From assembly GCA_902809825.1 (NCBI GenBank), contig LR778114.1, positions 248,001 to 312,000 of the forward strand: a DNA stretch of 64,000 nucleotides, read 5' to 3'. The stretch's first letter is position 1. Each line of letters begins with the position of its first letter. Shown here one piece after another: positions 44,136 through 57,653 of the stretch. The notes beneath the pieces were generated by a model, which searched no databases, was not told the origin of the DNA, and worked only from the letters and a program-made list of their open reading frames with translations. The position numbers and the translations under genes were made by a program. This stretch comes from Candidatus Hydrogenisulfobacillus filiaventi. Its GTDB lineage: Bacteria; Bacillota; Sulfobacillia; Sulfobacillales; R501.

Positions 44136-44756
44136 TCAGGCGTCCACGATGGGCGGGGTGACCGGCACGGTGCTGGTCACGGTGGTAGTGGTCGGGGTCT
44201 GCTGGGGCGGGAAGGGCGAGGGGCAGACGGCGGCCACCTGGCAGGGCGGCTCGACGCAGTAGCCGTAGGTGGGCACCAGCAGCTGCACCCGCGCCACCGT
44301 CTTCAGCTCCAGGCAGACGTTGGCGGTGGCATAGATGGTCCCCAGCACGCCGCTGATGGTGCTGGGCACCACGGTGGCGGCGCAGCTGACCGAGAAGGGC
44401 AGGCACTCGGGGGTGGTACCGGGGGGGTTGTAGAGGCTGGCCACCACTTGGGCGGTGGCGGTCACCGAGCCGGTGGCCCCGCTGTTGCAGGTGTAGTCGA
44501 TGGGCACGCTCACCAGCCAGGACAAGGTGTTGATGTCATTGGAACCGGGCACGGCGTTCAAAAAGGTGCAGGTGGGGGTCCCGCAGGTGACCGAGGTCAG
44601 GGAGGTGCAGTTGAGGGTGACCGCCAGGGTGGTGGCGTTGATGGTCACGTCCTGCTGGCAGGAGCCGAAGACCTTGTCGACCCAGATGCAATCCACCTCG
44701 GTGGGGGTGGGGACCCCGCTCGGGTACGGGCCCGGCGTGACCTGATCGATGGCCAT
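44136..44756 (-). CDS. Cys-rich paralog A (possible spore or surface coat protein)
   Basis: A 206-residue protein starting MAIDQVTPGPYPSGVPTPTE, with a GGAGGA ribosome site. It is rich in Thr, Val and Cys, with conserved Cys in CIWVDKVFGSC, TCGTPTCTFL, CLPFSVSC and GYCVEPPCQVAAVCP. It lacks a signal peptide. The V-D-K-V-x-x-S-C beginning resembles Firmicute proteins of unknown function that are sometimes linked to spore coats; that link is a recollection, not shown here. It has a C-terminal Thr/Val tail missing from its neighbour. It is a tandem duplicate of the next gene. Confidence 0.75.
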   Translation of the reverse strand: MAIDQVTPGPYPSGVPTPTEVDCIWVDKVFGSCQQDVTINATTLAVTLNCTSLTSVTCGTPTCTFLNAVPGSNDINTLSWLVSVPIDYTCNSGATGSVTATAQVVASLYNPPGTTPECLPFSVSCAATVVPSTISGVLGTIYATANVCLELKTVARVQLLVPTYGYCVEPPCQVAAVCPSPFPPQQTPTTTTVTSTVPVTPPIVDA

Positions 44757-44896
44757 GATGGCTCCTCCTTTCCGAGCTGCGGCGGGGACAGGACCCGAAT
44801 GGCAGGAGGCGGCGCGCCGTCCGGTTTCCCCGGGACCGGACGGCGGCCGGTTCCGATGCACACGCTATGCCCCGGTGCCGGCGGGGGTGCTACCGC

Positions 44897-45442
44897 TTAT
44901 CCCCCCTGCTGGGGCGGGAAGGGTGAAGGGCAGACGGCAGCCACCTGGCAGGGCGGCTCCACGCAGTAGCCGTAGGTGGGCACCAACAGCTGCACCCGCG
45001 CCACCGTCTTCAGCTCCAGGCACACGGTCGCGGTGGCGTAGACGGTACCCGCGACCACGGTGGCGGCGCAGTTGACCGAGAAGGGCAGGCACTCAGGGGT
45101 GGTGCCGGGCGGGTTGTAGAGGCTGGCCACCACCTGGGCGGTGGCGGTCACCGAGCCGGTGGTGCCGTCGTTGCAGGTGAAGCCGATGGGCACGTTGAGC
45201 AGCCAGGAAAGGGTATTGACGCTGTTGGATCCCGGGACGGCGTTCAGGAAGGTGCACACAGGCGTGCCGCAGCTGACCGACACCAACGACGTGCAGGTGA
45301 GGCTGGGCGCCGGCGTGGTGGCATTGACGGTGACGTCCTTCTGACAGGATCCGAAGACCTTATCCACCCAGATGCAGTCCACCTCGGTGGGGGTGGGCAC
45401 GCCGCCGGGGTACGGTCCCGGGGTAACCTGATCGGTGGCCAT
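44897..45442 (-). CDS. Cys-rich paralog B (possible spore or surface coat protein)
   Basis: A 181-residue protein closely similar along its whole length to the adjacent paralog: VDCIWVDKVFGSCQ, CTFLNAVPGSN, PPGTTPECLPFS, VCLELKTVARVQLLVPTYGY and the same Cys-rich end, lacking the final Thr/Val tail. AAGGAGGG precedes the start at 45442. The 140-base spacer between the pair has its own promoter-like or leader sequence but no gene. Disulfide-linked coat or matrix protein is a reasonable guess for either. Confidence 0.75.
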   Translation of the reverse strand: MATDQVTPGPYPGGVPTPTEVDCIWVDKVFGSCQKDVTVNATTPAPSLTCTSLVSVSCGTPVCTFLNAVPGSNSVNTLSWLLNVPIGFTCNDGTTGSVTATAQVVASLYNPPGTTPECLPFSVNCAATVVAGTVYATATVCLELKTVARVQLLVPTYGYCVEPPCQVAAVCPSPFPPQQGG

Positions 45443-47533: not shown

Positions 47534-49159
47534 GTGTACTTGGCCTTGCTGGAGACCTCCGGAAACCAGGCCTACATTTTTGCCGGCAACCGCCTGCGGG
47601 AGGCGGTGGGGGCGTCCTACCTGGTCTACGCTGCCGGCGCGGAGTGGCCGCTGGAGGCGGCCGCCGCCATTAACACCAACCACACGGGGTGTCTCACCCA
47701 GGGGAAGGACCGGTGGGCAGCCTGCCGGGAGGCATGGGCTTGTCCCATCGAAAAGGACCCCTCCATCCGGCTGGAGGTGCTGGTGGCAGCCTCCGGTAAG
47801 GCGCTCGCCCTGGCCCGCCGGGCTGAGGATGCGGAGGAGTGGATCGCCCGGGTGACGGGCCAGGCGCTAAGACAGGCGGCGGGCCTCGAGGTGACAGGGG
47901 TCGTCAGCCCCTGCTTTGATTGGGACCGCCAGCCGCTATGGGAGATTGAACGGCAGTTGTTCCAGCGCCTGCCGGCCATCCGGGGGGCGCGTCCTGGTCC
48001 GCTAAGCCGCCACCAGCGTTTGCCCGTTGTGGCGGAATGTGAGAGCCTGGGAGGGCCGGCGGCATACCGGGTATTAGAGAAGCATGAGGATGGGGAACCC
48101 CGGGTCCGACTCCTCAGCCCGGAAGCGTACGCTAAGGACAAGGTTCGGGCGCTCGGCCAGCAGCGGTTGCGGCAGCTGAATCCCCGGCTCTCCGATTTGG
48201 ACGGCCTGGAATCCCGGATGAAGGACCGGCACCAGGTGCAGTGGGTAGCGCTGGTGCATGCCGACGGGAACCGGTTTGGGGCCTTATTTGCCAATTTGTC
48301 TCAGACGTTGGAACTCAAGGATCCCTCCCGAAACCGTGACTATGCCAATGCCCTGCGCGAGTTCTCCCGGGCACTCGATGACGCGGCGGTCGAGGCCTTC
48401 CAGAGCATGCTGCGGGAGGGCCGGGATACAGGCGAATATCTCCTGCCCGTGATTGTGGCGGGTGATGATGTGACCTTCTACCTGCCGGCTCACGGTGCCC
48501 TGCAGCAAGTGGAGCGGTTTTTGCAGGCATACCGGGACTACACCGGTAGCCATCCGGAATTTGCCCGCTGGAGCAAACGCCCGCACCTGACCATGAGCGC
48601 CGGCGTGGCCGTGGTCAAGCCACATTTCCCTTTTTACCTGGCTTACGGGCTGGCCGAAGCCCTGGCCGCATCCGCCAAGACTGGTGCGGGCGCCGATGAC
48701 CCCGATCTGCCGTCCTGTCTAGATTTTCATGTGCTGCATGACCCGGGCGGCCGGGATCTGGAGGCGGTACGCACCCGGCTGGAGGTTCACAGCCTGGGAG
48801 AACCCGCTCGGTTATGGGGAGGACCTTACACCGTTGATGGTCCGGGCGAGGCTGCCCGTTTCAGGTGGGATCGATTGAAGGCGATGGTGGAACACCTGAA
48901 CTCCGTCGACGACAACGGCGACTACCGGTTTCCCCGTCGCCAGGCGCATTGGCTGCGGGAAGGCCTGTTTCAGGGACGGAAGGAAGCGGATCGGCGGCTG
49001 GGATTGCTGGCGGGGCGGTATGACATCGGTCCCTTGGCTGTCTCCAAACTGCCTGACGGGTCTCCATCCTTGTTCGGGTCGGTGGCGGACGGGAACGGCC
49101 CAGTGCATACACCGTTCCGTGACGCCCTGGAGGCGTCCGCCATTTGGGGGGAGGGCTAG
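47534..49159 (+). CDS. cas10: Cas10-like protein, palm domains only (type III CRISPR)
   Basis: About 541 residues. The N terminus (YLALLETSGNQAYIFAGNRL and REAVGASYLVYAAG) corresponds to the palm region seen in Cas10/Cmr2 proteins. The cyclase palm has VHADGNRFGALF (Asp244) and VIVAGDDVTFYLP, with AGDD at 309-312 in place of GGDD; both metal-binding Asp are kept, so synthesis of cyclic oligoadenylate is plausible. There is no HD nuclease domain. GTG 47534 is preferred over 47528 because AGGGGGAG lies seven bases upstream. The gene begins a co-directional run of six genes, with the next start only two bases after the stop. Confidence 0.85.
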   Translation: MYLALLETSGNQAYIFAGNRLREAVGASYLVYAAGAEWPLEAAAAINTNHTGCLTQGKDRWAACREAWACPIEKDPSIRLEVLVAASGKALALARRAEDAEEWIARVTGQALRQAAGLEVTGVVSPCFDWDRQPLWEIERQLFQRLPAIRGARPGPLSRHQRLPVVAECESLGGPAAYRVLEKHEDGEPRVRLLSPEAYAKDKVRALGQQRLRQLNPRLSDLDGLESRMKDRHQVQWVALVHADGNRFGALFANLSQTLELKDPSRNRDYANALREFSRALDDAAVEAFQSMLREGRDTGEYLLPVIVAGDDVTFYLPAHGALQQVERFLQAYRDYTGSHPEFARWSKRPHLTMSAGVAVVKPHFPFYLAYGLAEALAASAKTGAGADDPDLPSCLDFHVLHDPGGRDLEAVRTRLEVHSLGEPARLWGGPYTVDGPGEAARFRWDRLKAMVEHLNSVDDNGDYRFPRRQAHWLREGLFQGRKEADRRLGLLAGRYDIGPLAVSKLPDGSPSLFGSVADGNGPVHTPFRDALEASAIWGEG

Positions 49160-49161
49160 GG

Positions 49162-51603
49162 ATGGTCGCGCATGCTGAAGAACCTCGGCCGCTGGAAGAA
49201 CCCTTCCGGGTGCGCATCCGGTTTTTGAGCGATTGGGCGGTGGGTGCCGGCTTCGGCCGGGCCGGGGACCTGGATAGCCTGGTGGCCCGGGACGAGGACG
49301 GGCTGCCGTTTGTCCCCGCCAAGAGCCTGGTCGGGGTGTGGCGCAGTGCCTGTGAATTTGTGGCTCAGGCATTGGATGCCGATCGGCTCATGAAATGGGT
49401 GCGGGCAATCTTCGGCGGACCGCTGCAGAATGAGCCGGTTCAGCCGGGACGCTTGTGGGTGCGTCCCGCCCGCCTGCCGGAATCGGTACGTTGTCGCGCA
49501 TTGGCGAAGCCCGCCCTACGGGAGGCACTCACGTCGGTCAAACCTGGGGTGGCCTTGAACCCGAATGGAGTGGCAGAGGGACGCCAGCTGCGGCTGATGG
49601 AGGTGGCCCGGGCCGGGGCCGAGCTGGAAGCGGAAGCGGGGTGGACCGTTCCCTGGAGGAAAGAGGAGGCGCAGGTCGCCACTGCCTTGCTGGTTCTAGG
49701 ACTGACCCAGGTCGATCATCTAGGTGCCGACCGCCGGCGGGGTCTGGGCCGCTGCCAGGTCACCATTGTGGAGGCTTCTTCTCCCGAGGCGTATCAGCAC
49801 TGGCTGCAGCGTACCTGGGAGGTGTTGCCGGATCCGGAGCCCGAACCGGCCGTAACGTCCAACGGCCATGGCCATCGCCGTTCGAGCGGACTAGCCCCCT
49901 TGTGGAGCCTGCCGGTGTCGGTCCGGTTGCAGCAACCGGTGATAGCCGCTGCCCGTTCGGTAGGCAATGTGGTGGAAAGCCTGGACTTCCTGCCTGGAAC
50001 CGTGCTCTTGCCACGCTTGGCCGGGATGTTGAGCGAGGCTGGCATTGATGCGGCGGTGGCCGCCGGTCGCGGAGATGTGCAGGTGCTGCCCCTGGTGCCG
50101 GAAGTGAACGGGGTGCGAGGTCGGCCGTTGCCGGCGGTTTGGGAAGCCCCGAAGGGGGAAGGGGTCAACGGGGCCTGGCGGAACCGTTTGCACGGGGCTG
50201 TCGCCGATGGCCAGTTCAAGCCCATCCGGGGGCATTGGGTCGGGACGTGGGAGGCCACCTCTCATCCGCCAACAATGCGGGTTCAACCCGCTTTTTATAC
50301 TCATAACCACCTTCAGGATAACCGCGGTATCCCCCGCCCGGCCGAGGGAGGCGGCGTGTACAGTTACGAGACCCTGCCGGCCGGCCTTCGGCTGGCGGGT
50401 GAAATTCGCCTGCGGGCGGACCTGTTGCGGATATTGGAGGAATGGGACGGGGACTGGTGGCAGCGGCTCAACGGGTCAGTCCGGTTGGGGCGTTCCCGGA
50501 AGGATGCTTACGGGGGCGCGGAATTGATCGTCAGCGCGCCCGAGCCCTGGCAGCCTGCGGCGCGGGAACCGGTGAGGGACCATCTTACCGTATGGGTGTG
50601 GAGCCCTGTGCTCCTTCGGGATGAGCGGCTACGGCCCGCGGCCACCATTAAGACCCTGCGTAGGGTGCTCACAGCGTTAACCGGGCTTCAGCTGGGTGAT
50701 CCCGGGGGAGACGTGGCGGTGGTGCCCTTTCGGTTGGAGAGCTGGCAGAGCCGCTGGGGACTGGCCCGGCCGAGTCTCGTTGGCCTCGGGCCCGGCACAG
50801 TGGTGCGCTTTCCTGTAACCGGAGCGGTTCCGGCCGATCTGAAGGCGGTGCTGGATCGGATTGAGGCCGAGGGGCTGGGCGAGCGACGCGGCGAAGGTTT
50901 CGGGCAGGTCCGTTTTCAGGATCCGGTGCTGGAGTGGTCCGAGGTAAGGAAGGCGGCCGCCGAACCGGTGGTGTCCCCGATTACGGCCAACGGCAAGGGA
51001 TGCCCGCCGTTGGGCTGGGATTCGGACCCAGATGGGACTTGGGCGCGGTTCTTGGAGGCAGCAGAAACGGCTGCCTGGGACAATGACCTGGGGACCCGCG
51101 TGCGGGTGGCTATGGCCACCCTTGAGGGCCGATTGCAGGCCATTCAGTCCTTCTTGGGCGAGATACCGTCCGGCGCCGAGGCGCTCAGGCGGGGTCAGGT
51201 TGAGGCCCTGCGGGAAGCTCTGCTGGCGGGCCCGGCGCATGCTCGCGCTTGGTGGTGGCACCTAATGGCGGCTGAAGGGCAGGAGCCGGGTGAGAGGACG
51301 TCCGCTAGGCAGCGGGCCGCCCGGAACCGGCCCACTCAGCGCCGGCGGTGGCCGGAAGCCTGGGTGAGGGTGTGGGCGAAGCTTTTCGGGTGGTCAGCCG
51401 CATCCCCCTCGTCGTTGGACGACCTTGGCGCCCTGCTTCGCGCGGTAACCGGAGACGCGAGCCTCGACCCGGGCTGGTGGCTGTGGGAGGGCGCTGCGGC
51501 ACCGCCGGGCCGGCGGGAAGCCCTCTGGTGGCGGCTGGGTTTCCTGTGGGCGGATGCCTTGGCTGAGGCCCTGCGGAAGGAGGAGGCCAATGGCGCGTTT
51601 TGA
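49162..51603 (+). CDS. csx10: Cas7-Cas5-Cas11-like fusion RAMP protein (Csx10-like)
   Basis: A 813-residue fusion. Residues about 15-215 form a Cas7-like RAMP: FLSDWAVGAGFGRAGDLDSL with candidate catalytic Asp36/Asp38, GLPFVPAKSLVGVWR, and the Gly-rich loop GADRRRGLGRCQV. Residues about 245-590 form a second RAMP of Cas5/Csx10 kind, ending with the Gly-rich loop GLGERRGEGFGQVRFQ. The last 220 residues are helical and Trp/Ala-rich (WARFLEAAETAAWDNDL, VAMATLEGRLQAIQSF) and may act as a fused small subunit (Cas11). This matches the Cas7-5-11 subunit of type III-Dv complexes. The end overlaps the next gene by 14 bases. Confidence 0.82.
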   Translation: MVAHAEEPRPLEEPFRVRIRFLSDWAVGAGFGRAGDLDSLVARDEDGLPFVPAKSLVGVWRSACEFVAQALDADRLMKWVRAIFGGPLQNEPVQPGRLWVRPARLPESVRCRALAKPALREALTSVKPGVALNPNGVAEGRQLRLMEVARAGAELEAEAGWTVPWRKEEAQVATALLVLGLTQVDHLGADRRRGLGRCQVTIVEASSPEAYQHWLQRTWEVLPDPEPEPAVTSNGHGHRRSSGLAPLWSLPVSVRLQQPVIAAARSVGNVVESLDFLPGTVLLPRLAGMLSEAGIDAAVAAGRGDVQVLPLVPEVNGVRGRPLPAVWEAPKGEGVNGAWRNRLHGAVADGQFKPIRGHWVGTWEATSHPPTMRVQPAFYTHNHLQDNRGIPRPAEGGGVYSYETLPAGLRLAGEIRLRADLLRILEEWDGDWWQRLNGSVRLGRSRKDAYGGAELIVSAPEPWQPAAREPVRDHLTVWVWSPVLLRDERLRPAATIKTLRRVLTALTGLQLGDPGGDVAVVPFRLESWQSRWGLARPSLVGLGPGTVVRFPVTGAVPADLKAVLDRIEAEGLGERRGEGFGQVRFQDPVLEWSEVRKAAAEPVVSPITANGKGCPPLGWDSDPDGTWARFLEAAETAAWDNDLGTRVRVAMATLEGRLQAIQSFLGEIPSGAEALRRGQVEALREALLAGPAHARAWWWHLMAAEGQEPGERTSARQRAARNRPTQRRRWPEAWVRVWAKLFGWSAASPSSLDDLGALLRAVTGDASLDPGWWLWEGAAAPPGRREALWWRLGFLWADALAEALRKEEANGAF

Positions 51604-53158
51604 GCGCTATAGGGTCCAGGGCATCTTGACGGCCCATGGGCCCATCCGGGTAGGGGGAGCCGGGGGAGGGCCCGGGATTGACCTTCTGCCGGCTGCCAAC
51701 GGCATGGGTCAATGGATTCTGCCCGGGAGCAGCGTTGCCGGGGCGCTGCGGGCGGTCGACTTTCGCCTCCATGCCCAGGATGGCCTTGAGAACCAGCTGC
51801 GCGCCATGTGGGGGCCGTTGGATGAGGACCAGCGGCCGCTGGGGGCCTCCCGCATCTGGGTGGAGGACGCCGTCACCAAGGAACAGGCTGTGGCGGAAAT
51901 CCGGGACGGGGTCGGGATTCACCGCCGGAGTGGGGCGGCGGCCGCCCGGATCAAGTACAACCAGCTGGTGCTGCCGGCCGGCACACGCTTCGCCTGGGAA
52001 ATGCGATGGGACCGGTTGGTGGCGGTGGACGACGGGGAGCAGCCGGACCCGACGCCGGAGGCGTGGTTGTTTCCGTTGCTGTTCTACCTGGTTTCGCGTG
52101 GACTGCCACTAGGTGGGGGAAAAACCCGGGGACTTGGGTGGGTGCGGCTCAAGAAGTCGACCCTGCAGGTCCGCCGGGAGGATTGGAGCACCCGGGAAGG
52201 GGCATGGCGAGCCCTTGCGGGCGGCGAGCCGGTTGGGTTGACGTGGCCGTCGTCGCCGGGCGATGCCGGACGGTTGCTCACTATTACGGTGGAATGGGAT
52301 CCGGACGGGCCGGTACTGGTGGCGGCCGGGGGTCAGGGCATCGGGGTGGACACGGTACCGTTAACCACCCGGGGGCCGGATGGCAAGCGGTATCTGGTGT
52401 TACCCGGTTCCAGTCTGAAAGGGGTTCTCCGGTCCCACGCCGAGCGCATCGTACGCACGGTCATCGGCCCCTGCGAGGAAACCAAAAAGTGGCTAGATCT
52501 GCATGACCGTTTTGAAGCCCTATTGGATGTGCCCTTGGTGCGGGAACTGTTCGGAAGCCCACGACGGAAATCGCCAGCAGCCGGGAGTGAGGCGGCGGCG
52601 GGAATGATGGGTGCACTGCGGGTGGAGGACGTGCGCTCGACCGTGGGTTGGGATGAGGAGACCTGGGAGGCGATCACCGCCAAGCCCCAGGAGCAGGGGT
52701 GCGGGCATCAGCCAAGCCGGGTTGGCGAAGGGGTGGAGGACGATACCCTGCAGCTGGCCCAACACGTGGCAATCGACCGTTTTACAGGCGGGGCGGCTCC
52801 GGGACTCCTCTACGACGTGTTGGAGCCGCACCGCATGAAGTGGAAGCCATGGCGGCTTCAGCTAGACCTGGCTCGCCTCCCGCAGCTGGAGCAGCCGGCC
52901 CTGGCATTACTGCTGCTGGTGCTGGACGATGTCGCAGCCGGCCGGGTGGGCATCGGATTCGGGACCCAGCGTGGCCACGGCGTCGTGCGCATCCGAAGGG
53001 TGACAGTGGAACCGGTTCCCGAGGATTGGCCAGGCCGCCCCAAGTGGGAGGCGGGGTCCGCCGTGATCCGGGAGCTGCCCTCGGAGGTCCGGGACTGGCT
53101 GCGACGCGGCTGGGAGACCTGGTGGCGGCCACTGGCCCCATCCTCGAAGGGGGCGTGA
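51590..53158 (+). CDS. Double Cas7 (Cas7-2x) RAMP protein
   Basis: A 522-residue tandem of two Cas7/Csm3-like modules. Module 1 has GGGPGIDLLPAANGMGQWIL with Asp31, LPGSSVAGALRAVDF and GLPLGGGKTRGLGWVRL. Module 2 has GQGIGVDTVPLTTRGPDG with Asp254, LPGSSLKGVLRSHAERI, ELFGSP, ALRVEDVRS, HVAIDRFTGGAAPGLLYDV and the loop GIGFGTQRGHGVVRI. Csm3-type proteins form the backbone along crRNA and cut bound target RNA with an Asp at these positions, so both modules may be active. ATG 51590 lies after AAGGAGGAGG inside the preceding coding end. Confidence 0.86.
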   Translation: MARFERYRVQGILTAHGPIRVGGAGGGPGIDLLPAANGMGQWILPGSSVAGALRAVDFRLHAQDGLENQLRAMWGPLDEDQRPLGASRIWVEDAVTKEQAVAEIRDGVGIHRRSGAAAARIKYNQLVLPAGTRFAWEMRWDRLVAVDDGEQPDPTPEAWLFPLLFYLVSRGLPLGGGKTRGLGWVRLKKSTLQVRREDWSTREGAWRALAGGEPVGLTWPSSPGDAGRLLTITVEWDPDGPVLVAAGGQGIGVDTVPLTTRGPDGKRYLVLPGSSLKGVLRSHAERIVRTVIGPCEETKKWLDLHDRFEALLDVPLVRELFGSPRRKSPAAGSEAAAGMMGALRVEDVRSTVGWDEETWEAITAKPQEQGCGHQPSRVGEGVEDDTLQLAQHVAIDRFTGGAAPGLLYDVLEPHRMKWKPWRLQLDLARLPQLEQPALALLLLVLDDVAAGRVGIGFGTQRGHGVVRIRRVTVEPVPEDWPGRPKWEAGSAVIRELPSEVRDWLRRGWETWWRPLAPSSKGA

Positions 53159-53160
53159 GG

Positions 53161-53724
53161 ATGATGCGGGTGGGCTGGTTGATTTCCCGATCCCTGCAGC
53201 CAGGACCGTGGCAGGAGGCCCTGGCAGCGGGCTTGCCGGTGCTCCTCCGCGGGGGGCCGGTGACGGCGCTCGCCTATACCCCGGATCGGTGCAGCCTGTT
53301 GCGGGTCGGCCAGGATGGCGCCCTGGAGGGACCGCATGGCCCTGATCCCCTGCCAGGGCTTTATGAGCTGCGGGCGTTTTCCTCCTCGGCCGAACTGCGG
53401 TGGTGGCTGGGGCCCGACGGCCACGGACAGACCGTCCTCCTTGAGGACGGGACGGGGGATGCGCCGGCGGGAGCCACGCAGGTGGAGGAAGCCTTGGAGG
53501 GGTCCTATTTCCTTTGGGGAACCGTTCAGGATGTGAACGGACCATGGAGCGGCTTGGGCGAGGCCCGTCTGCCTCACCGGTTGTGGGTTCCGGTGGCAGC
53601 CCGGCGCAGCCAGCGGATCCAGCTCAGGTTTCGGGAATTTGTGCTGCGGTATGACGACGGCAACCTAGCGGTTGGGGAGGAGCGGCTCCTCGGCCTGCAG
53701 GTGGAGCGCGAGGAGGAGGCCTAG
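53161..53724 (+). CDS. csx19: Csx19-like CRISPR-associated protein (TIGR03984 type)
   Basis: A 187-residue protein. LPGLYELRAFSSSAELRWW, a mid-region SYFLWGTVQDVNGPWSGLGE, the following RLPHRLWVPV, QRIQLRFREFVLRYDDGN and LAVGEERLLGLQVE fit the TIGR03984/Csx19 family, which is found only in type III-D-like loci and is a structural subunit of the III-Dv complex. No catalytic motif is known or seen. It is spaced two bases from the gene before and two bases from the gene after. The assignment rests on pattern memory plus position, both consistent. Confidence 0.75.
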   Translation: MMRVGWLISRSLQPGPWQEALAAGLPVLLRGGPVTALAYTPDRCSLLRVGQDGALEGPHGPDPLPGLYELRAFSSSAELRWWLGPDGHGQTVLLEDGTGDAPAGATQVEEALEGSYFLWGTVQDVNGPWSGLGEARLPHRLWVPVAARRSQRIQLRFREFVLRYDDGNLAVGEERLLGLQVEREEEA

Positions 53725-53726
53725 GC

Positions 53727-56300
53727 GTGGAGACAGGATGGCTCACCGTCTTACATGGGCAATACCGGCTGCGGGATGGGCAAGGACAAGAGTGGTCCCT
53801 TGATCCGGCTGAACTGGACCAGGGGCTGGAACGCCTAACGCGTGCCCGGGACCTTCTGGTGGAGTTTCGCCGGGCGGCTGATGGTGGGCCTGTTCACGTG
53901 CGACTGCCCGGAAGTGCTGATGAACCAGAGGCAGACCCGTCGCCGGTTCCGACATCCGGCGACCGTGAGCCGGATCGTTTCCATAATCCTTACAATTTCG
54001 TGCCGCTGGCCCGGCGTCCCCGGGAGGGTCCTCTGGCGGACGGATTCCCGGCGGGTCATGAGTGCTGGTATCCGCGCCGGTGGAGCGGCCGGATCATGGT
54101 CCGAATGACCGTCAAAACCCCGCTTGTCATGCCGGACGCTGCCCGTCGATGGCCATGGCGAGAGAGCCGGACTGAGGACGGCGCCGAGGATGAGGGTGCT
54201 CATTACGTTTATCCGCTGCGGATGGTGGAGGGAAAGCCGTATATCCCCCCCACATCCGTCAAGGGCATGCTGCGGGCTGCCTATGAGGCAGTGACCAACT
54301 CCCGTTTTGGCGTGTTCCGCGACGATGTGCGGCTGGGGTACCGGACCCCGACGGAGGAGGCAAAGGACCTGGTGCCGGCCCAGGTGGTCAAGGCGAGCGA
54401 CGGTACCCTTGCACTACAATTGCTGCCAGGCACGGGGAAGAAGACGTGCCGGACGAAGTCCGGGCAGCAGAACGCCCCTGTGCTGTATGCGGCCTGGTTC
54501 CCCTCCTACCCAAAACCTAACCGGAAGGCTCAGCCGATCACTTACCCTGACGGGTCCTTTCCTCGCCATGGCGACTATGTGAAGGCCCGCCTGCGCCGGT
54601 TCCGGCGCTATGTATGCAATTCCGACCGGCGTCCGGAATTGACCTTTTGCTATTGGCGGGTAGTGGCCATTGCCAGACCGAATGAAACACTGCCTTCCCC
54701 GGATTATGACCAATTAGGAGCATGGCAGCCGGTACCGCAAGCGTGCTCCGCTCAGGACCCGGAAAAGCATTTCCATGAACTGGAGGAGGATATTAATATT
54801 AACCCGATAGAGGTGGAGGGCTGGGTGGTCAGGACCAACGACAATATTTCCAGAAAATACAATGAACGTCTCTTTTTTGATGACACAGGTAAGCATGTCC
54901 GGCTGCCTATCCCCGAAGCGGTAAAGAGTGCGTGGAAAACGTTGATTGAAGATTACCGGGGGACCAATGGCAAGATCATCGGGCAACTGCGGGCGGGCGA
55001 CCTGGAGTCATTGCGGCAGACTGGTCGCCTGCGCCAGGGGCGCCGGCTGGTGGGGACGAGGGCAAATCCCTCGCGGCACCTCTATGATCCCCCCTCTTCA
55101 GATTTGCAGGAAGGCGAGTTGGTGTATGCCGAACTGGACGCGGACGCTACTACGGTCGTCGCCCTTTATCCGGTCCAGCTGTCCCGCCGGTTGTTCCCGC
55201 TGTCGCCGGCGGACCTGCTGGAGGAGGAGTTTCGCCCGGCGCCCTCGTTGGAGGCCTGTTCGCCGGCGGATCGGGTTTTCGGATGGGTCGCCTCACGCCG
55301 GGTAGGGGCCGAGGCGGACCAACAAAAAGATCAGGAGGGAAAGCAGCACGCGCCGGACACCCCCAACGCCTGGCGGGGACACCTGCGGGTGGGTCCGGTT
55401 ACCTTGACGGACCAGCCGGGACATGTTCCCCTGCAGACCCTGGGTAAAGGTAAAGATAGCCTCCCCCTCGCCATCCTTTCGTCGCCCAAGCCCTCCCAGG
55501 TCCGCTTTTATCTGGTCGGACCCGATGGGCAGCCGTTGACAGCTCCGAAAGGCCGGGGCTACCAGGATGGTCATAGATTGCGGGGGCGCAAGGTTTACCC
55601 TCATCAGATGCTACCCGAAGGCTATTTCGCAGCTCGCCAAGGACCGGCTACAGGCGGTCGCTATCGGGAATTTCTGCGGACAGGCGGCAAGCGGGATGAT
55701 CAGAACTTTTCCATCGAAGCGTGGATCACGCCGGGGACGGTTTTTACCTTCCCGCTGTGGGTAACCAATCTCAGCGCTCAGGAAGCAGGGGCGCTCTTGT
55801 GGCTTTTGACGCTGCCGCGGGACCATTATTTCCGTCTCGGGGCGGGCAAGCCGTTGGGATTCGGCAGCGTGCGGCTCGAGGTGGTCTGGCAGCAGTCGGA
55901 CGTGCGCACCGGCGAGAAGTGGGCGGATGCCTACCGGGCATGGGATCCGGCGGAGTCTGAGGAGAATCCCGAGCATCGCCTTCGGTCGTTAATCCAATCG
56001 TTCCGGGAGGCAACCGAAAAGGATTACGGGCGCCCGTTCGAAAACGTTCCTTTCATCCAGGCATTTTTGCGGGCCGCCATCGGTTTCCGGGACGGTCTTC
56101 CTGTGCATTATCCGCGCTTAACCACTGCTCCGGATCCGGACGGGAAAAACTACAAATGGTTTATGGAGAACGAAAAGGGCCCGAAATATCCGTTGGCGCT
56201 CCTGATTGAAGATGAAGGGCTGCCCTACAAGCCCGAAGGGGCGGATAAGGGACAGCGCCGCCCGCGATCCGGAGGTCCACGGCGACGGCCGGTGCCTTAG
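53727..56300 (+). CDS. Large Cas7-type RAMP protein (TIGR03986-like; Cas7 with insertion)
   Basis: An 857-residue RAMP. FHNPYNFVPLARRPREGPLA near residue 85 and YPRRWSGRIMVRMTVKTPLV are TIGR03986 hallmarks. Next come KPYIPPTSVKGMLRAAYEAV (Cas7 R-loop), a long insertion of about 400 residues including KHFHELEEDININPIEVEGW, then TPGTVFTFPLWVTNLSAQEA and the final Gly-rich loop GAGKPLGFGSVRLEVV. This is the size and layout of the Cas7-insertion subunit of III-Dv complexes. GTG 53727 follows AGGAGGAGGCCTAGGC. The coding sequence here is visibly richer in A and T than flanking genes. Confidence 0.83.
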   Translation: METGWLTVLHGQYRLRDGQGQEWSLDPAELDQGLERLTRARDLLVEFRRAADGGPVHVRLPGSADEPEADPSPVPTSGDREPDRFHNPYNFVPLARRPREGPLADGFPAGHECWYPRRWSGRIMVRMTVKTPLVMPDAARRWPWRESRTEDGAEDEGAHYVYPLRMVEGKPYIPPTSVKGMLRAAYEAVTNSRFGVFRDDVRLGYRTPTEEAKDLVPAQVVKASDGTLALQLLPGTGKKTCRTKSGQQNAPVLYAAWFPSYPKPNRKAQPITYPDGSFPRHGDYVKARLRRFRRYVCNSDRRPELTFCYWRVVAIARPNETLPSPDYDQLGAWQPVPQACSAQDPEKHFHELEEDININPIEVEGWVVRTNDNISRKYNERLFFDDTGKHVRLPIPEAVKSAWKTLIEDYRGTNGKIIGQLRAGDLESLRQTGRLRQGRRLVGTRANPSRHLYDPPSSDLQEGELVYAELDADATTVVALYPVQLSRRLFPLSPADLLEEEFRPAPSLEACSPADRVFGWVASRRVGAEADQQKDQEGKQHAPDTPNAWRGHLRVGPVTLTDQPGHVPLQTLGKGKDSLPLAILSSPKPSQVRFYLVGPDGQPLTAPKGRGYQDGHRLRGRKVYPHQMLPEGYFAARQGPATGGRYREFLRTGGKRDDQNFSIEAWITPGTVFTFPLWVTNLSAQEAGALLWLLTLPRDHYFRLGAGKPLGFGSVRLEVVWQQSDVRTGEKWADAYRAWDPAESEENPEHRLRSLIQSFREATEKDYGRPFENVPFIQAFLRAAIGFRDGLPVHYPRLTTAPDPDGKNYKWFMENEKGPKYPLALLIEDEGLPYKPEGADKGQRRPRSGGPRRRPVP

Positions 56301-56342
56301 CTGGCGGGATTGGGGAGGGTTCTGAAACGAGGGGAATATGCC

Positions 56343-57653
56343 ATGGGAACCGCTACGAATGCGGTACTGATTACCGCCCTGGGAACGGGCAAATATGTCC
56401 CGATTAGTTACCATTTTACCGGACGGGATGCCGTGGGGGACGTAAAGACTTGTTTTCCCAGCCTGGCGATGTGGAAGCTACTCGATCCGCATCCCAAAGA
56501 GTTGTGGGTGCTCTTGACAGATGAAGCCCGCCATAAGTGGTGGGGTACATTCCGCCTGGTTGCCTCCCGCTTGGGCGTTGTGAATCCCCGCGAGATCCCC
56601 ATTAAAATCGGACCTCAGTCCGACGGGCGGGAAGTGTTTGCACCCCTGGCGAAAGCCTTGAGGGAGAGGAATCTTCCGCCGGTGGTCCTGGACATTACGT
56701 TCGGGTTCCGGATGCTTCCGCTGGCATATCTCCTGACTATGACCTACATTTATGGACTTAAGCAACCATTGGTGGATAAGAAGGACGTGTTCGACCAGCG
56801 ACCGGTCTCTGTTTATTACGGAGCCCGTGAAATGCCGAAGAATGGTGCAGCGCCGATTGTAGACCTTACCCCTGCATTTTACCTGGTGGACTGGTTTTAT
56901 GCCGCCCGCACGTTCAGTCATGCAGGGGCTTTAGGGCCTTTTGTGGAGGCGTGGGAAGCCAACAAATCCCACTCTCCCTCATCCAGAGCGGTGGGCGAAT
57001 TCGGGACAACCATCCGGAAGCTAGGGCACGCGCTCGACAACGGACTGGCCATTGAGGTCGGAAAACTGGCCAAAGACGCCCTCCAACACATTAGAGAACT
57101 GCAGGAGGAAGATTTCATCGGCAATCTGGAGCCGGTCGCGCACATGCTGGGCCGCCTCCAGGAGGGGCTGGAGGGCCTAGCATTCTCGAGTGACAAAAAA
57201 ATCCTCGATCAAGAGGAATTACAACGGGAACTCCATGGCATTCGATGGTACCAGCTTCATAATCGCCCTTCTCTAGCCTTGGCGTGGTCCCGGGAGTGGT
57301 TGATTAACTGGGTACTTTGGCGTGAGGGCAAGACCGATGCCGGAAGGTGGTTGAATTACCGGGAGGTTCGCCGGCCTATCGAACAGCTCCTGGGTTGTTT
57401 AAGTAACTTCATGGATGATAAAAAACAGAAACATGGACTCAATGAGTTACAGCGGGAGGTCGGGTCCTTGTGGAAATCTATTAGTGGCGCCCGCAACTAT
57501 TATCAGCATGCGGGATTTGCTGACTCTCCTTCCAGGAGTACTATTCAGGTGGAACGGATGGAACAAATCCTGGCAGATACCCGTCCTATCGGGTTGCTGC
57601 GGGAGGGCACTGAAAAATGCCGGGCCACTACGCAGGACCCGGACGAGGGATGA
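56343..57653 (+). CDS. CARF-HEPN ribonuclease of the Csx1/Csx2 (TM1812) kind
   Basis: A 436-residue protein. The N terminus NAVLITALGTGKYVPISYHF and the later KELWVLLTDEARHKWWGTF form a CARF (cyclic oligoadenylate sensing) Rossmann fold. The DxTHGFR motif of TM1812-type proteins appears as DITFGFR (Asp117), with Phe for His. The C terminus is helical and contains a HEPN active site, R384-N-Y-Y-Q-H389 in SGARNYYQHAGF, so RNase activity switched on by Cas10-made cyclic oligoadenylate is expected. ATG 56343 follows GAGGGGAAT. It is the last gene of the CRISPR run and the least GC-rich. Confidence 0.82.
   Translation: MGTATNAVLITALGTGKYVPISYHFTGRDAVGDVKTCFPSLAMWKLLDPHPKELWVLLTDEARHKWWGTFRLVASRLGVVNPREIPIKIGPQSDGREVFAPLAKALRERNLPPVVLDITFGFRMLPLAYLLTMTYIYGLKQPLVDKKDVFDQRPVSVYYGAREMPKNGAAPIVDLTPAFYLVDWFYAARTFSHAGALGPFVEAWEANKSHSPSSRAVGEFGTTIRKLGHALDNGLAIEVGKLAKDALQHIRELQEEDFIGNLEPVAHMLGRLQEGLEGLAFSSDKKILDQEELQRELHGIRWYQLHNRPSLALAWSREWLINWVLWREGKTDAGRWLNYREVRRPIEQLLGCLSNFMDDKKQKHGLNELQREVGSLWKSISGARNYYQHAGFADSPSRSTIQVERMEQILADTRPIGLLREGTEKCRATTQDPDEG

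Follow-up and report, generated by a model that had tools for sequence, protein, structure and literature searches.

In the window (the whole 64,000-nucleotide stretch of DNA analyzed here), we identified an operon that in all likelihood encodes a complete type III-Dv (fused III-D) effector together with a linked Csx1 ribonuclease, acquired horizontally by a high-GC Bacillota host. The operon was originally predicted to comprise six abutting same-strand genes, and it appears as six consecutive open reading frames on the + strand (47528/47534-57653), with neighbors adjoining or overlapping and every frame intact. The likely start codons are GTG 47534, ATG 49162, ATG 51590, ATG 53161, GTG 53727, and ATG 56343, with purine-rich sites upstream in most of the six genes; for cas10, GTG 47534 is the best fit because it follows a GGGGGAG ribosome-binding site at a distance of 7 nt and relatives start at the equivalent residue. 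The features are as follows.

47534..49159, + strand: cas10, 541 aa; phmmer match to 8s9t_C, PADLOC Cas10
49162..51603, + strand: cas7-cas5-cas11 fusion, 813 aa from the ATG, with a longer TTG start at 49144; phmmer match to 8s9t_A
~49195-49800, + strand: Cas7 part of the fusion
~49897-50937, + strand: Cas5 part of the fusion
~51037-51588, + strand: Cas11 helical domain of the fusion
51590..53158, + strand: cas7-2x (double Cas7), from ATG 51590; phmmer match to 8s9t_D, PADLOC Cas7_IIId
53161..53724, + strand: csx19; TIGR03984, phmmer match to 8s9t_B
53727..56300, + strand: cas7 with a large insertion, 857 aa; TIGR03986 family, phmmer match to 8s9t_E
56343..57653, + strand: csx1-type CARF-HEPN ribonuclease, 436 aa from the ATG, with TTG 56310 as a possible start; PADLOC Csx1/Csm6

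The III-Dv parts list recognized in the original prediction (Cas10, Cas7-5-11, Cas7-2x, Csx19, and Cas7 with an insertion) is borne out by sequence comparison: the best PDB matches of genes 1 to 5 (47534-56300) in phmmer searches are chains C, A, D, B, and E, in that order, of the Synechocystis type III-Dv effector 8s9t, all five of whose protein chains are matched. The E-values were 2.9e-62 for Cas10 (residues 4-537; PADLOC Cas10, 3.4e-87), 1.4e-86 for the fusion protein, 1.5e-76 for Cas7-2x (over 17-523; PADLOC Cas7_IIId, 7.3e-100), 4.2e-12 for Csx19 (TIGR03984, 4.8e-26, above the NCBIfam cutoff), and 2.5e-121 for the Cas7 with an insertion (TIGR03986, 2.3e-86, above the NCBIfam cutoff); values of 1e-121 to 4e-12 against solved chains exclude a chance match. 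PADLOC labeled genes 1 to 3 as Cas10, Cas5/Cas7 III-D, and Cas7 III-D, and the gene order differs from those of both III-A and III-B loci. The structural comparison with the III-Dv complex that had been proposed as a check was run for the fusion, whose AlphaFold2 model (pLDDT 77) shows a helical tail after two RAMP parts; residues 18-819 of the model superposed on 8s9t_A with a Z score of 41.5 over 718 residues, covering Cas7, Cas5, and Cas11 in one chain, and the next structural family scored well below this (Z 19.6). The expected RAMP glycine loops were located as PGSSLKG and PTSVKG. The hallmarks of III-Dv found in the operon are Cas7, Cas5, and Cas11 in a single polypeptide (from both the sequence and model matches to 8s9t_A), a double Cas7, a Cas7 with a large insertion, a Csx19 subunit, a Cas10 without an HD nuclease and with palm cyclase residues, and catalytic aspartates in three Cas7 domains. 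Type III-E, a single-protein Cas7-11 without Cas10 or Cas5, is ruled out by the presence of separate Cas10 and Cas5-bearing proteins.

The residues that cut target RNA in the Synechocystis complex are D26, D33, and D246 (PMC11026444), and the candidate Asp nuclease sites of the original prediction align with these three residues. Each of the three Cas7 domains of the window proteins retains its equivalent: the catalytic Asp of the fusion is encoded at 49273-49275 (D44, invariant in the family alignments), and the D33 and D246 equivalents of Cas7-2x are encoded at 51680-51682 and 52349-52351. The catalytic-base arginine (Synechocystis R678) aligns with an invariant arginine, R690, in the family alignment but not in the pairwise alignment, which is ambiguous at this position. 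For the seed gate of the Cas7 with an insertion, an Asp equivalent to D616 is present, and R400 and K396 fall in a poorly aligning region. By homology, we infer that Cas7-5-11, Cas7-2x, Csx19, the Cas7 with an insertion, and Cas10 would assemble once each on one crRNA, and that target RNA would pair along this crRNA, with metal-bound Asp residues of the three Cas7 domains cutting it at three positions spaced 6 nt apart.

The sixth gene had been described as a CARF-HEPN RNase with an RNYYQH site joined to the operon, and this description agrees with both motif and fold. The HEPN motif RNYYQH lies at 57492-57509, and R395, N396, and H400 are invariant across 10 aligned proteins (the window Csx1 and nine from III-Dv loci). 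PADLOC assigns the protein to Csx1/Csm6 (2.6e-52), and it matches TIGR02221 below the cutoff (2.3e-13). A PDB sequence search with this protein gave no significant match; however, a fold search with its model (pLDDT 72.5, of moderate quality) matched Csx1-Crn2 of Marinitoga (8y6z; Z 19.0 over 381 residues) and Csx1 of Sulfolobus islandicus (6qzt; Z 16.6), which share its CARF-linker-HEPN fold at 14-19% identity; the window protein has no Crn2 fusion. It has a CARF-HTH-HEPN fold with an RX4H motif, that is, the combination of CARF and HEPN with RX4-6H by which Csx1 is recognized, and its CARF motif reads DITFGFR, in which most relatives have H for the first F. Csx1 proteins bind cA4 by the definition of a survey (PMC11229360), making cA4 the presumed ligand here.

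The palm of Cas10 carries the motifs HADGN and AGDD, the latter, as predicted, found in Cas10 at 48458-48469. There is no HD motif at the N terminus, the sole HD string being at residue 402; HD domains occur in only 3% of III-D in the same survey of 1113 type III loci (PMC11229360). Synechocystis and nearly all aligned III-Dv Cas10 proteins read GGDD instead of AGDD, which also occurs in the Cas10 of two other loci (L043 and L049), and our literature search found no assay of AGDD in a III-D Cas10. In a separate case, the III-Dv Cas10 of Candidatus Parabeggiatoa (L065, 325-2082) has GGDS for GGDD, and its cyclase may be lost.

The presence of AGDD in the window Cas10 raises the prospect that the III-Dv complex still cuts RNA while its Cas10 makes no cyclic oligoadenylate, with Csx1 left idle or served by another Cas10. 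Such a source would be at hand in a separate type III-B locus (~349-358 kb; L014:4241-13776) that lies ~47 kb downstream of the operon and has its own Cas10, with GGDD, and a Csx1-like CARF-HEPN gene. We nevertheless regard a dead cyclase as unlikely: both motif aspartates and HADGN are retained, AGDD is among the motifs of likely active cyclases from effector-bearing loci (PMC11229360), activity is known for VCA0965, a diguanylate cyclase with the related motif AGDEF (PMC3974145), and the retention of csx1 in the same operon would be left unexplained. If, as we prefer, the operon encodes a cutting and signaling effector, target binding would switch on the Cas10 palm to produce cyclic oligoadenylate, probably cA4, which would activate the CARF-HEPN Csx1 and thereby trigger the degradation of cellular RNA until target cutting ends the signal. 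Both target RNA cutting and Csx1 activation by III-Dv have been shown experimentally in Synechocystis (PMC11026444), and the conservation of key residues in the window proteins is consistent with the original prediction of an RNA cutter that also signals through cyclic oligoadenylate to the RNase. Another CARF-type gene in the III-B locus is related to the one in the Csm6 position in Synechocystis (178 bits).

The operon itself lacks an array, cas6, and cas1-cas2. No CRISPR array was found in the window or within 290-364 kb of the genome, around the operon, and no repeat-like sequence was found in the window, where the best candidate had 11/30 mismatches. The genome is a single contig of 2.57 Mb whose sole cas1 match, at 72.5 kb, is far from the window in a type I-B-like locus (~65-74 kb), after which comes an array with 89 repeats (88 spacers); a second array, of 79 repeats (78 spacers), lies at 1.57 Mb and has an identical repeat. 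We read this repeat as GTTCGTAGCCTACCTATGAGGAATTGAAAC, a direction that places the decayed repeats found at one end at the trailer end, and it ends in the handle ATTGAAAC, compared to ACTGAAAC at the end of the Synechocystis repeat. The 88-spacer array (G000:C1:73803-79628; L010:13804-19628) contains a four-spacer block duplicated in tandem, and 161 of the 166 spacers in both arrays are unique; those of the first array had no match in phage records. A search of the genome with PF10040 (Cas6) gave no match; judged by position, the likely Cas6 candidate is the gene that opens the I-B locus (L010 4802-5779).

Because there is no local array, the I-B arrays have a compatible repeat end, and Cas6 apparently comes from other loci in most type III loci (PMC12669027), supply in trans is the simplest reading: crRNAs for III-Dv probably come from the two I-B arrays, most likely with the help of the I-B Cas6, and arrays with a different repeat may exist elsewhere in the genome. 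The same lack of a local array, along with the failure to find a PF10040 Cas6, could instead mark an orphan, nonfunctional effector island that receives no crRNA. We consider this improbable, since six intact frames and retained catalytic residues speak against decay, the I-B-like locus includes a protein placed where Cas6 would be expected, the repeats of the two arrays (166 spacers in all) have a compatible end, and trans use of Cas6 is apparently usual. We favor a genuine, diverged, and probably functional III-Dv operon with a Csx1 partner. One genome houses three effector complexes, and a more tentative proposal, possible though well short of probable, is that the operon represents a divergent III-Dv lineage without its own array or Cas6, in which one I-B spacer set guides I-B against DNA and both III-B and III-Dv against RNA, and in which the AGDD signal may differ in kind or amount.

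The operon sits among unrelated genes, which encode glycosyltransferases, a CAP protein, methyltransferases, a GH25 lysozyme-like protein, and a UDP-GlcNAc 2-epimerase. It looks acquired from its GC content of 64%, compared to 73% on both flanks, and from the GC3 of its genes, 0.61-0.79 compared to ~0.89 around them. Within the operon, GC also declines: it is 65-69% for the first four genes, ~61% for the cas7 with an insertion, and 55% for csx1, a hint that the components may not all share one origin or age. None of 40 genomes of the same order had a close match, and no relatives were recovered in viral contigs with search patterns that were window-specific and weak. Elsewhere in the window, two neighboring paralogous genes on the - strand (44136-44861 and 44897-45442) share 82-88% DNA identity; the one member tested had no Pfam match, and they possibly encode secreted or spore-surface proteins.

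Among 50 loci collected via the Cas7 with an insertion, about 25 show the same gene order and fusions, in Cyanobacteria, Planctomycetota, Acidobacteriota, and Pseudomonadota, and a Csx1-like gene directly follows the cas7 with an insertion in eight. The best-known relative, the III-Dv system on pSYSA of Synechocystis PCC 6803 (8s9t/u/v/x; Schwartz et al. 2024, PMC11026444), has the same five genes, order, and fusions, three catalytic aspartates, no working HD domain, and Csx1 nearby. The window operon differs from it in 31-41% identity across the five core proteins, in AGDD instead of GGDD, in the absence of adjoining cas6, cas1-cas2, or array, and in a csx1 that is on the same strand directly after the cas7 with an insertion. 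Trees of the Cas7 with an insertion and of Cas10 place the window in the III-Dv group on a long branch with no well-supported sister, apart from a III-D clade of other Bacillota. The phylogeny of the fusion that had been suggested alongside the original prediction likewise places the window in the III-Dv group, where it pairs on long branches with a contig of a same-class genome (SH-aLRT 92). This contig (L104, genome G113) encodes cas10, a fused Cas7-5-11 (41% identity), Cas7-2x, and Csx19 in order; it differs in having GGDD in Cas10, and it is a 7-kb contig, ending before the cas7 with an insertion, from a draft genome with 7% contamination.

The fusion protein matched 14 of 398 sampled Bacillota genomes, including the window's own, most matches being partial. 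In four Bacillota regions that we read (L117-L120), cas10, a fused Cas5, a double Cas7, and a TIGR03986-type protein occur in the same order, and Csx19 was confirmed in all three of those tested, including L117 and L118. Bacillota and Chloroflexota III-D loci (L049, L054, L056, L117, L118, and L120) resemble the window in cas10, a Cas7-Cas5 fusion of 749-857 aa, a double Cas7, and a TIGR03986-type protein in this order, but their sequences are far more distant and form a separate clade in trees. The suggested possible novelty of the combination for this kind of organism is therefore not upheld: III-Dv is also present in a second genome of this class, more distant versions with the same genes are found in other Bacillota, and linkage to a Csx1-like gene is common. 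Given these same-order fused loci, the architecture is not new to Bacillota, although III-Dv proper is rare there. A misreading of a standard III-A, III-B, or unfused III-D1 locus as III-Dv can be set aside almost entirely, since profile matches to Csm3, Cmr4, and Csx10 are partial only, whereas most of the fusion aligns with 8s9t chain A, most of the double Cas7 aligns with chain D, and the structural match spans Cas7, Cas5, and Cas11 within one chain.

Type III-Dv is a proposed step between multisubunit and single-protein type III effectors, and its range now reaches a deep branch on a Bacillota chromosome. As a diverged homolog, the window operon is useful for comparing which residues matter in these complexes, and, if the sharing of guides proves true, it would provide a natural test of III-Dv loading crRNAs made for another system.
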